A stretch of 64,000 nt of DNA from Hyphomonas pacifica (lineage in GTDB: Bacteria > Pseudomonadota > Alphaproteobacteria > Caulobacterales > Hyphomonadaceae), in NCBI RefSeq assembly GCF_000682675.1, contig NZ_AWFA01000056.1, positions 62,001-126,000 of the forward strand, given 5' to 3'. The translations under genes were made by a program, and so were the position numbers. This document shows positions 45,354-48,224 of the stretch, piece by piece (position 1 is the stretch's first letter; every line of letters starts with the position of its first letter). A model generated the notes under the pieces. That model saw nothing but the letters and a program-made list of their open reading frames with translations, did not search any database and had not been told where the DNA came from.

Positions 45354-46433
45354 CTAGTCCCACAGGGAGCCAAGCATCAGCCCGGCCCGCCAGTCTTCCC
45401 TATGGGGCACATAGGCCGGCCCACAGTGCGGACAGGCATGCTTGTGCAGACGGTCTGCCAGCGTCCAGCTGGACTCGCCTGTACGCACACCGGCCCCTTC
45501 CAGTAGGCCGACCAGGTGACGCAGATGCGGCTCCTCCACATCGGCATTCCGGGCCAGCTTTGCCTCTGCCAGCCGCCAGCCAGCCGGATCCTGACGCAGG
45601 GCCAGAGCAACCGGCGGACGGCCCCCTTCGCGTACGGCATAGACCGCCATACGCCCCAGGGAGAGATCGGCCGCGAAGTCCCGCAGGCAATTGTGGAACT
45701 CCAATGCGATCTCAGCCAGTGCCTTGCGGGTACGAACCGGATGGAACGCTGCCGGCAGACGCGGCGGCGCGAGCACAAAGCCGAACTCGGCCGGCTGCAG
45801 GGCTTCCGCCGCCATGTCGAACAGGCGGACAGACGTCGCCGCCCGTTGCCAGCGCTTGACCAGGTGAGGTCCATGCCCCGCCCCATGAATTCTCCGGGCC
45901 AGAGCATAGGCATCCGCCAGGTCTTCCGCTGCCTCCTTGCGCTCCGGAAGGCGGCCGATGATGCCTGGCACCCGTAACGCAGACGGAAGGGCCTGCATCA
46001 GGGTCAGCTGATCTGCTTCAATCTGCGGCATGTGCCGCAACACTGTGACGGCTTCCGGATCGGCAAACAGGGCCAGAAAGGCATCATACGCGTCTTCCTG
46101 CCACAGCGCTTCACCGAGACGTCCGAGCGCCTTCATCAGGCCACCCGGCGCCTCACCGCGCATCAGAATGCGGGCAAGGTCAGCGTCGCGGGCACGCTCC
46201 ACCGCGTGCACAACGTCCAGCTCCATACCGCCGGGATCAGTCCAGCGCCGTTGCAAAAGGATCGCTGCCGCATGACGCCGCGCCGTCGGCAAGGCAAAGA
46301 AGCCGGCATGTGGCGCAGGCCAGAGATGGGCAACCCGGCCCGCATGCGGCCCGGCAATGAACACCAGCAAAGGCGTTGGTGCGGGGGCCTTGCCACGAGA
46401 CAAGACACCCGCGCGGGTCATGAGCGTGCCCAT
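45354..46433 (-). CDS. PcfJ-like protein with C-terminal CxxC
   Basis: 359 residues from MGTLMTRAGVLSRG; AAGGAGG lies seven bases before this ATG, so the longer open frame is not needed. It is mostly helical with an Arg-rich middle. The C-terminal third (EFHNCLRDFAADLSLGRMAVYAVREGG, then VALALRQDPAGWRLAEAKLARNADV) follows the pattern of PcfJ-type domains: a cysteine, then a G followed by a strand, a R-x-G turn, and a late N. A CPHCGPAYVPHR motif near residue 335 could bind zinc. Function is not known. It lies downstream of rtcB with a 272-base spacer that can fold. Confidence 0.6.
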   Translation of the reverse strand: MGTLMTRAGVLSRGKAPAPTPLLVFIAGPHAGRVAHLWPAPHAGFFALPTARRHAAAILLQRRWTDPGGMELDVVHAVERARDADLARILMRGEAPGGLMKALGRLGEALWQEDAYDAFLALFADPEAVTVLRHMPQIEADQLTLMQALPSALRVPGIIGRLPERKEAAEDLADAYALARRIHGAGHGPHLVKRWQRAATSVRLFDMAAEALQPAEFGFVLAPPRLPAAFHPVRTRKALAEIALEFHNCLRDFAADLSLGRMAVYAVREGGRPPVALALRQDPAGWRLAEAKLARNADVEEPHLRHLVGLLEGAGVRTGESSWTLADRLHKHACPHCGPAYVPHREDWRAGLMLGSLWD

Positions 46434-46452
46434 GATCCACCTCCTTTCACTT

Positions 46453-46484
46453 GATCCGGAAACAGATTTTCCTTTTCCCGGACC
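46453..46484 (-). other. Leader hairpin before the PcfJ-like gene
   Basis: On the minus strand GGTCCGGGAAA and TTTCCGGATC pair with a single bulge around a purine-rich loop that contains AGGAAAA. The hairpin ends about ten bases before the strong ribosome site of the gene starting at 46433, so it may affect its translation. Confidence 0.35.
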
Positions 46485-46620
46485 ATGAAACTTCAGAATC
46501 ATCTCAGTATCAGGAGGCGACCGGCCATAGCGCGGGCGCCGCTGACAACGCCCCCCGCCTTTGCGAGGAGCTGTGTGTGTCTCTACAACTCTGCATCATC
46601 TCATCTTGTCTCGCTTGCCT

Positions 46621-46705: not shown

Positions 46706-47917
46706 TCAGCCCTTCACGCACACAACCTGTTTCAGGGTGTGAACCACTTCCACAAGATCTGTCTGCGCGGCCATGACGCTGTCGATATCCTTATAGGCCA
46801 TGGGCGTCTCATCGATCACGCCCTTGTCCTTCCGGCATTCGACACCTTCGGTCGCCGCAAGGTGATCCTCGACAGAGAACCGCCGTTTGGCTTCACCCCG
46901 GCTCATGGCCCGCCCTGCCCCATGGGAGCAGGAGCAGAAAGAGTCTGCATGTCCCTTCCCGCGAACAATGAAGGATTTCGCCCCCATTGATCCCGGAATG
47001 ATGCCCAGTTCATCCTTCCCGGCGCGCACGGCGCCCTTCCGGGTAACCCAGACATCGGACCCAAAATGGTGTTCCCGCTCCACATAATTGTGGTGGCAAT
47101 TCACCGCTTCCTTCTCCAGCGCAAAGGCCGGAAAATGCTCACGCAGGGTAAACAGTACACGGTCCATCATCACCTCGCGGTTCAGGCGGGCATAATCCTG
47201 CGCCCAGCTGACCGCTTCGGTGTAATCGTCGAACAATGCCTCTCCTTCCACGAAGAAGGCGAGATCCTTGTCCGGCACATGATAGCTCAGCACACGTTTC
47301 TCCAGGGCCTCGCGTGCTTCCTGAATGAAATAGGTTCCGAGGATGTTCCCCGTCCCGCGAGAGCCGGAATGAAGCATCACCCAGACGCGGTCCGCTTCAT
47401 CCAGACACAGCTCGATGAAGTGGTTTCCGCCGCCCAACGTGCCCAACTGCTTGGCAAATGCCGTGCGCTGAATACGCCGATGCTTCTTCAGGATCACATC
47501 CAGTCTGTCCGCCAGGCCAGAGGCCTTCAGGGCCGTTGCCGCGCGCGCCGGAGCTTCCTTGTGGTTGCCACCGCGCCCATTGCCAACCGGCACCTTGCGC
47601 TCGATCTCGCTACGGATGGCCGACAGGCTATCCGGCAGATCTTTCGCCGTCAGGCTAGTGCGGATTGCCATCATCCCGCACCCAATATCGACCCCGACAG
47701 CGGCAGGAATGATCGCGCCCCGCGTGGGGATGACCGAGCCAACCGTCGCGCCGCGGCCATAATGCACATCCGGCATCACGGCCAAATGGCTGTGAATGAA
47801 CGGCAAACCCGCCACATTCTCCAGCTGGGTGCGCGCTTGCGCTTCCAGAGGCACACCCTTGACCCAGGCCTTGATGCGCCCGCCAGCGCTGGTTTCTATC
47901 ACTTCAAAATCGCTCAT
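46706..47917 (-). CDS. rtcB: RNA 3'-phosphate/5'-OH ligase RtcB
   Basis: 403 residues. Manganese and guanylylation residues are visible: VDIGCGM with D77 and C80, GGNHFIEL, MLHSGSRGTGN, NCHHNYVERE, and the guanylylated H332 in CSHGAGRAMSR. The start has AAGGA a few bases upstream. RtcB joins 2',3'-cyclic phosphate or 3'-phosphate ends to 5'-OH ends with GTP and repairs cleaved tRNA and rRNA. No RtcA cyclase or sigma-54 regulator RtcR is next to it, unlike the E. coli operon. The nearest same-strand gene is the PcfJ-like protein. Confidence 0.95.
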   Translation of the reverse strand: MSDFEVIETSAGGRIKAWVKGVPLEAQARTQLENVAGLPFIHSHLAVMPDVHYGRGATVGSVIPTRGAIIPAAVGVDIGCGMMAIRTSLTAKDLPDSLSAIRSEIERKVPVGNGRGGNHKEAPARAATALKASGLADRLDVILKKHRRIQRTAFAKQLGTLGGGNHFIELCLDEADRVWVMLHSGSRGTGNILGTYFIQEAREALEKRVLSYHVPDKDLAFFVEGEALFDDYTEAVSWAQDYARLNREVMMDRVLFTLREHFPAFALEKEAVNCHHNYVEREHHFGSDVWVTRKGAVRAGKDELGIIPGSMGAKSFIVRGKGHADSFCSCSHGAGRAMSRGEAKRRFSVEDHLAATEGVECRKDKGVIDETPMAYKDIDSVMAAQTDLVEVVHTLKQVVCVKG

Positions 47918-47992
47918 TGTTCCTTAGTCTGCTCTTTTCTCAGACTCCTCCTGACAAGCCCTCCACGCGTTTCCATCGGGTTCGAAAGACAT

Positions 47993-48026
47993 AAAAAAAA
48001 CCCTCCGGGCGTAAACGCGCGGAGGG
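47993..48026 (-). terminator. Terminator of a short transcription unit
   Basis: Arms CCCTCCGCGCG and CGCCCGGAGGG (one mismatch) around TTTA, followed by eight T on the minus strand. It lies 76 bases before the rtcB start and 43 bases after a small frame, so it ends a separate unit rather than a known gene. Confidence 0.88.
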
Positions 48027-48068
48027 CGGCATAAGACCGGTTGCCCAGCCCCGGACTGACACTCAGCC

Positions 48069-48155
48069 CTATCCACTCACCTCCATGCAGCAGCCCTCGC
48101 TACCGGGTAGCCGGTTACGATTTGCGCTTTGAAAGTTTGGTTCTGGCCGTTTCAT
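48069..48155 (-). CDS. Possible 28-residue peptide in a stand-alone transcription unit
   Basis: ATG 48155 to TAG 48069, with GAGGA about eight bases upstream. The peptide begins MKRPEPNFQSANRNR, is basic, and has a double cysteine (GCCMEVSG) near the end. A promoter-like site and a strong terminator frame it closely. The same stretch can fold: ATCCACTC upstream pairs with GAGTGGAT at the stop, so a non-coding RNA is just as possible. I recognise no family. Confidence 0.25.
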   Translation of the reverse strand: MKRPEPNFQSANRNRLPGSEGCCMEVSG

Positions 48156-48185
48156 CGGTCCGTCCTCTGAGTGGATTGAGGCCGC

Positions 48186-48214
48186 CATATGACGGAGGGC
48201 GCGGGCAGCGTCAA
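48186..48214 (-). promoter_or_regulatory. Putative sigma-70-type promoter of the short unit
   Basis: On the minus strand TTGACG (48214-48209), 17-base spacer, CATATG (48191-48186). The -35 matches five of six consensus bases, the -10 only three. It lies between the metallophosphoesterase terminator and the 28-codon frame, leaving a transcript of roughly 190 bases to the terminator at 47993. Confidence 0.4.
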
Positions 48215-48224
48215 CCCCAAAGAT

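Follow-up and report, generated by a model that had tools for sequence, protein, structure and literature searches.

The DNA analysed here, a window of 64,000 nucleotides from Hyphomonas pacifica, raises a simple question: what is served by a promoter-like site, a 28-codon frame and a strong terminator that follow one another on the minus strand between a metallophosphoesterase gene (49704-48301, minus strand) and rtcB? An earlier note on this DNA, in which the unit was first recognized, held that neither neighbor needs the terminator and took the unit for what is probably an independent sRNA or small-protein gene. The premise is contradicted by the position of rtcB (46706-47917, minus strand, ATG at 47917; Pfam RtcB PF01139, E 8.7e-128), an RNA ligase gene that follows immediately on the same strand, with its start about 75-76 nt from the terminator. 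Sequence comparison gives good support for assigning the unit as a cis-acting rtcB leader that has a conserved terminator, and we lean toward its being an attenuator-type 5′ leader with a translated short frame. In what follows, L-numbers denote loci or leaders and G-numbers denote genomes, and "the family" is that of the source organism.

All features described for the locus are on the minus strand. Downstream of the metallophosphoesterase terminator (48258-48230) is the putative leader promoter (TTGACG, 17 nt, CATATG; 48214-48186, with TTGACG at 48214-48209 and CATATG at 48191-48186), from which the leader RNA would start at about 48180, so that its predicted 5′ end carries the 5′ arm of a long-range helix, P1 (ATCCACTC, 48176-48169). 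An AGAGGA ribosome site precedes at close distance the ATG (48155) of the leader frame (48155-48069), the translation of which is MKRPEPNFQSANRNRLPGSEGCCMEVSG. Within this frame reside a hairpin near the middle (PM, 48097-48120) and, near the end, an AUGGAGG segment (element A, 48080-48086) that is a candidate antiterminator arm. The last codons and the TAG stop (48071-48069) overlap the P1 3′ arm (GAGTGGAT, 48078-48071), within which the frame ends. After the stop codon come the P2 hairpin (48053-48069) and the intrinsic terminator (47993-48026), composed of a stem (48026-48001) with 5′ and 3′ arms T5 (48026-48016) and T3 (48011-48001) and a run of eight T (48000-47993), the run that the earlier note had pointed out. 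Located 3′ of the terminator is element C (AAACGCGUGGAGGGC, 47958-47972), which is complementary to T5 and in the window could form with it a helix of 15 bp including one G-U. The likely ribosome-binding region of rtcB, judged from its sequence, consists of GGAGG followed by a potential hairpin, AGTCTG/CAGACT (47926-47951); among the 51 leaders, a hairpin here is better than shuffles (p<=0.05) in only 16. For the 382-residue gene downstream of rtcB (45354-46502, minus strand), neither Pfam nor NCBIfam gives a match at E 0.001.

The segment 47993-48222, which takes in some promoter DNA, has a folding energy of -102.2 kcal/mol versus -87.7 ± 5.0 for its shuffled versions (z -2.9; one of 200 shuffles as good). 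The Rfam search that the earlier note had proposed yielded nothing credible: there are no matches in the window at gathering score, and under relaxed thresholds the 21 matches around the element each fall below their own cut-off. Five other loci of the leader type (L001, L060, L075, L135, L161) likewise have no Rfam match.

The promoter-like site reported earlier is indeed present and is shared by relatives, with TTGA[C/A]-(15-19)-CAT detected in 27 of 28 loci. Among 51 family leaders, 49 have TTGA between -75 and -50 relative to the leader start, the exceptions being L027, in which an insert cuts the region short, and L060, which lacks it. A generic sigma-70 scan of the window does not list this promoter, whose -10 element fits the consensus poorly, and the call is therefore made from conservation rather than from the scan. 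The promoter-to-terminator unit of about 190 nt is thus as real as had been proposed, is conserved, and probably gives rise to a short terminated RNA; termination in the leader is inferred from the conserved structure.

That structure was examined in a MAFFT alignment of 34 leaders, made without structural information, that omits all g5 leaders, L080, L002, L008 and L062 and retains L020, L027 and L061. P1, the pairing of ATCCACTC with GAGTGGAT, had been named beforehand from the window, and PM and P2 were defined after the relatives had been viewed. For P1, PM, P2 and the terminator together, 94.0% of alignment cells are paired versus 87.2% in shuffles, and double changes are found in 15 of 29 pairs, a number reached in none of 500 shuffles; slid versions of the structure have 33-49% of cells paired. 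The long-range pairing of the earlier note is thereby substantiated, since P1 is paired in 95.2% of cells and covaries (double changes in 4 of 8 pairs), one of its pairs being G-C in 20 of the 34 leaders, A-U in 11 and C-G in 2. PM is paired in 79% of cells with double changes in all 6 of its pairs, and among the 51 leaders it outperforms shuffles (p<=0.05) in 31. P2 reaches 99.0% of cells, with double changes in 4 of 6 pairs. The terminator is paired in 99.7% of cells, but 8 of its 9 pairs are invariant. A hairpin at the start codon also recurs, but is not claimed, since a median of 18% of the remaining positions in a given leader perform equally well.

The 28-codon frame is retained in all 28 loci, with ATG as the start in 27 and TTG in L009. 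Across the 51 family leaders, the frame is 28 codons long in 33, 25 in 12, 27 in 4, 29 in 1 and 30 in 1. No leader has an in-frame stop, as against 47 and 24 of the 51 in the other two frames over the same span, a comparison in which frame 0 had been chosen as open; as tested in this way, the frame appears to be selected for remaining open. Conservation in these leaders does not extend to its inner residues. Substitutions are spread over all codon positions, and in close pairs of leaders non-synonymous codon changes predominate, with 43 of 72 in g1 and 62 of 71 in g5. Of the two outcomes of alignment envisaged by the earlier note, compensatory changes are in evidence (in the 15 pairs noted above). 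The double cysteine that had been pointed out exists in the window but is found in only 5 of 51 leaders. The frame contains no run of one regulatory codon, and a slight enrichment of early Tyr, Asn and Arg codons, confounded by hairpins, is not claimed. Element A is kept in L060 and L064 although it lies in another reading frame there. Taken together, the pattern fits a frame that needs to be translated and whose product is not needed.

The terminator arm T5 has several potential partners. Over an alignment of 44 leaders, which omits seven of the 51 (L020, L027, L061 and L080, with inserts or long spacers, and the near-duplicates L002, L008 and L062), the mean pairing energies of T5 are -16.1 kcal/mol with T3, -25.7 with element C and -12.5 with element A. 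The T5:C helix is paired in 93.3% of cells over these leaders. It contains 29 double-changed cells versus 12.0 in shuffles, and a higher covariation score (each 0/500 shuffles), but pairs with double changes number 3 of 12, no more than in shuffles (386/500). Because they are confined to these three pairs, the changes represent a few events inherited by clades. The fraction of leaders in which T5:C is better than shuffled downstream sequence (p<=0.05) is 46 of 50 in the family, 5 of 10 in f2, 3 of 5 in f4 and 2 of 5 in f5, with none in f3 (11 leaders) or among 7 others. The A:T5 pairing displays no covariation in the family and is better than shuffles in none of 25 Hyphomonas leaders; p<=0.05 is reached by a single one of the 50 family leaders and by 12 of the 38 from elsewhere, which are not independent of one another. 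When T5 arms are swapped between families, as a test of this pairing, native pairs are favored in f1 but not in f2-f5. L064, whose terminator was mis-called, is left out of the swap, the shuffle test of T5 partners and the family mask folding described below, and L027 of the swap. The swap, the partner shuffles and the non-family masks also omit L141, the loci L142, L150, L151 and L156, which have an extra short gene, and the RtcR-type loci L169-L172.

The effect of translation was approached by partition-function folding with ribosome-sized masks, which gives equilibrium predictions rather than kinetics. No mask lowers the terminator probability below 0.70 in any of the 25 Hyphomonas leaders, and in the full-length RNA T5 is paired with element C at 0.97 or above in 24 of the 25 (0.28 in L021). 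An A:T5 antiterminator in Hyphomonas is accordingly unsupported by covariation, shuffles and folding alike. Elsewhere, a switch is predicted in some leaders. In three of five f5 leaders (L134, L136, L137), a mask at the start codon drops the terminator from 0.94-0.96 to 0.00-0.26, and a mask at the stop restores 0.95-0.99; the other two do not respond. In the g5 leaders L066, L067, L074 and L078, a start or in-frame mask loses the terminator to upstream pairing, and a stop mask has the terminator. Such responses in g5 and f5 are the behavior expected of a translation-controlled attenuator. The 38 leaders outside the family are 31 from the 40 order regions and 7 picked by eye from 80 loci, with frames that were chosen automatically and may in some cases be wrong; among them, a start mask brings the terminator below 0.5 in 6, most are unresponsive, and in L199 ribosome masks raise the terminator. 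Since 12 of these 38 leaders beat shuffles and masks flip some leaders, A:T5 is kept as a possibility. A ribosome-dependent switch is, in sum, predicted by folding in some relatives and not in Hyphomonas.

These data bear most directly on a second account, rather unlikely in our estimation, in which the element is a cis leader of rtcB that switches independently of translation of the frame, whether by binding a protein, possibly RtcB itself, or some other ligand, or because the T5:C helix controls how rtcB is translated. The strong covariation, the conserved T5:C pairing, the near-complete capture of T5 predicted for full-length RNAs of 24 of 25 Hyphomonas leaders and the insensitivity of the Hyphomonas terminator to ribosome masks would all suit such a leader. 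It does not account for the fact that each of the 51 leaders keeps an open frame of fixed length, preceded by a ribosome site and with the stop located in P1, and element C does not cover the likely ribosome site of rtcB. A translated attenuator is, in our best reading, the most economical account of the frame, P1, PM and the terminator together.

Both of these accounts place the element in cis to rtcB, and its distribution among bacteria speaks to this point. When 150 relatives were searched by blastn with the element, 30 matched, and in 28 of the 30 loci the start of rtcB adjoins the match; of the others, L026 has an rtcB reduced to its last codons, and L028 is a spurious match of 23 bases. 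The metallophosphoesterase gene is the upstream neighbor in only 10 of the 30 loci and differs elsewhere, with several loci instead having, by eye, what we take to be the L17 ribosomal protein gene. At E<=1e-60, rtcB is found in 25 of 42 Hyphomonas genomes, and all 25 have the element. The 17 genomes without rtcB yield a single blastn match, in G025, which is a decayed remnant beside the last rtcB codons: a shifted frame overruns the usual stop, and the 300 nt after the start contain no stretch of four T. One more Hyphomonas genome, G010, has a weak covariance-model match (E 0.002). Within the family, rtcB is present in 56 of 105 genomes, and inspection of all 56 upstream regions reveals the leader architecture in 51; by eye, it was not found upstream of rtcB in G047.

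A covariance model built from 34 leaders and searched with Infernal's stricter filters in 398 genomes of the order matches 66 at E<=0.01, and 49 matches reach E<=1e-6. The latter comprise the G025 remnant and 48 that immediately precede rtcB, 13 of which fall in groups not used for model building. Weaker matches in G149, G231 and G227 are also upstream of rtcB, and those in G085, G161, G117, G372, G171, G373 and G063, with no rtcB in 3-kb stretches, are ascribed to chance. The model also matches Ponticaulis, Hirschia and Henriciella records. Among 40 more regions of the order, 31 have a terminator and short upstream frame before rtcB, four have the terminator and an extra short gene, four are of the RtcR type without a leader, and L141 was not evaluated. 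In one clade (L142, L150, L151, L156), the leader terminator and rtcB are separated by this additional gene, which has at least about 80 codons. Outside the order, six loci picked by eye from 80 resemble this architecture (L192, L194, L199, L207, L223, L249).

The independence claimed by the earlier note therefore does not hold, because the element occurs with rtcB, even the sole remnant without an intact rtcB lying beside its last codons, and the upstream neighbor varies. A trans-acting sRNA with its own terminator, for which adjacency to rtcB would be incidental, could well be built as a self-contained promoter-to-terminator unit with conserved structure. It becomes improbable when rtcB adjoins 48 of the 49 strong model matches, the element is lost along with rtcB, and T5 pairs with a segment located between the terminator and rtcB. 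The generic scan also lists no promoter-like site between the terminator and rtcB from which the latter could be separately transcribed, a silence that is weak evidence since the same scan missed the leader promoter. Very unlikely, too, is a plain terminator with constant partial read-through and no switch: it would agree with the terminator being favored in all predicted states in Hyphomonas, and would leave the conservation of P1, PM, the frame and element C unexplained. A gene for a functional 28-residue protein is scarcely credible, despite a frame with a ribosome site that is open in all 51 leaders, because its inner residues are freely replaced, mostly by non-synonymous changes, its middle codons form a covarying hairpin and its cysteine pair is rarely present.

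The distribution of the leader can also be compared with that of RtcR, the known regulator of rtcB. RtcR (PF06956) has no match in the source genome, in a search for which an E. coli control was positive, and the own rtcB thus has no RtcR gene beside it of the kind that marks RtcR-controlled rtcBA; nor does RtcR match in any leader-type genome of the family. In the family, RtcR is found in exactly four of 105 genomes (G150, G059, G063, G066), and these have an rtcB of 60-63% identity without the leader. The leader is therefore present at 51 of 52 RtcR-less rtcB genes of the family versus none of the four RtcR-linked ones, and it is absent before RtcR-type rtcB in eight regions examined. Of 298 genomes sampled from the order, 11 have RtcR, each time on a contig with an rtcB of 64% identity or less. 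G277 has an rtcB resembling the RtcR type (62%, at a contig end) and no RtcR match, and G178 has both types, an RtcR-linked rtcB and a leader-type rtcB on another contig. The leader probably decides when rtcB is on in bacteria that lack RtcR.

The RtcR-type regions have features of their own. Seven were searched with Rfam, and YrlA RNA was found in L082, L083, L084 and L171 and not in L081, L169 or L172. In these Alphaproteobacteria, the interval from rtcB to RtcR in L082, L083 and L084 (f1) and L171 (f4) contains YrlA (Y RNA-like) and tRNA genes, with two YrlA genes in L083; YrlA is also upstream of rtcB in L196 (Inquilinus). Upstream of the RtcR-type rtcB in L169 and L081 is, by eye, a sigma-54-like TGGCAC-N5-TTGC; by what we take to be the sigma-54 consensus, the L169 site fits and the L081 site nearly does.

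The promoter, frame and intrinsic terminator located upstream of rtcB on the same strand are, as sequence features, those of the attenuator class. In the trp and his attenuators, a leader frame, alternative pairings and a terminator precede the gene. The rtcB leader shares these elements, its alternative pairings being predicted, but has no run of a single regulatory codon, has an additional T5 partner 3′ of the terminator, and is predicted to be switched by a stalled ribosome only in some relatives. Closest in kind is the PA5471.1 leader of Pseudomonas aeruginosa, in which a short translated frame and predicted terminators are reported to lie upstream of the RtcB-like gene armZ (PA5471), with a proposed transcription attenuation that is relieved by impaired ribosomes (PMC12057347, PMC3516279; see also PMC3575510 on armZ leader control). 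The likeness is one of position and architecture, a short leader frame and a terminator upstream of an RtcB-family gene. PA5471.1 encodes 13 residues about 250 bp upstream of an efflux-pump anti-repressor gene, whereas the present frame of 25-30 codons directly precedes an ordinary rtcB RNA ligase gene in Alphaproteobacteria. The RtcR/sigma-54 control of rtcBA in E. coli and Salmonella, for which damaged tRNA is reported as the signal (PMC7790460), concerns the same enzyme family but employs a protein activator. Among the literature entries listed on rtcB leaders or attenuation, on rtcB in Caulobacter and on Hyphomonas small RNAs, none was seen to describe an rtcB leader in these bacteria, within a coverage outside which most subscription papers lie. 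To the question of how rtcB is switched on in RtcR-less bacteria, the leader offers a concrete, testable answer.

As a translated attenuator, the leader might operate as follows. Transcription would begin just upstream of P1, the frame of 25-30 codons would be translated, and the intrinsic terminator, located some 190 nt further on and ahead of rtcB, would stop the majority of transcripts, so that rtcB would be expressed from read-through. A ribosome that stalls early or is absent would permit refolding in which T5 is captured and the terminator is not formed. The likely signal is faulty translation of the leader owing to damaged tRNAs or ribosomes, since these are what RtcB repairs and in analogy to armZ. 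In the read-through RNA, element C is predicted to take T5; being transcribed after the terminator, it cannot prevent its formation, but it could release the mRNA of rtcB from that hairpin, or else tune rtcB translation. Such a conserved partner downstream of a terminator is unusual and invites a mechanism. Conceivably, though we hold this only tentatively, an order-wide RNA switch stands in for RtcR, with T5 as a hub for three possible partners (the end of the frame, T3, and element C near the rtcB ribosome site), so that a leader left untranslated because of cut tRNAs or broken ribosomes would turn on the mending enzyme at the levels of both transcription and translation. The leader suggests, at any rate, that the state of translation can feed directly into the control of RNA repair.

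Two further observations were made in the course of this comparison. In G050 (contig 1, 901203-902407), rtcB appears as two adjacent matches, of residues 1-260 and 263-402, with the leader present, representing either a broken gene or a sequencing error. In L117 and L123 (G085 and G161, group g4), another conserved short frame and a GC-rich terminator-like hairpin are located directly upstream of a small gene starting MGK(R/K)ASAKRQ, and are possibly another leader in similar style.
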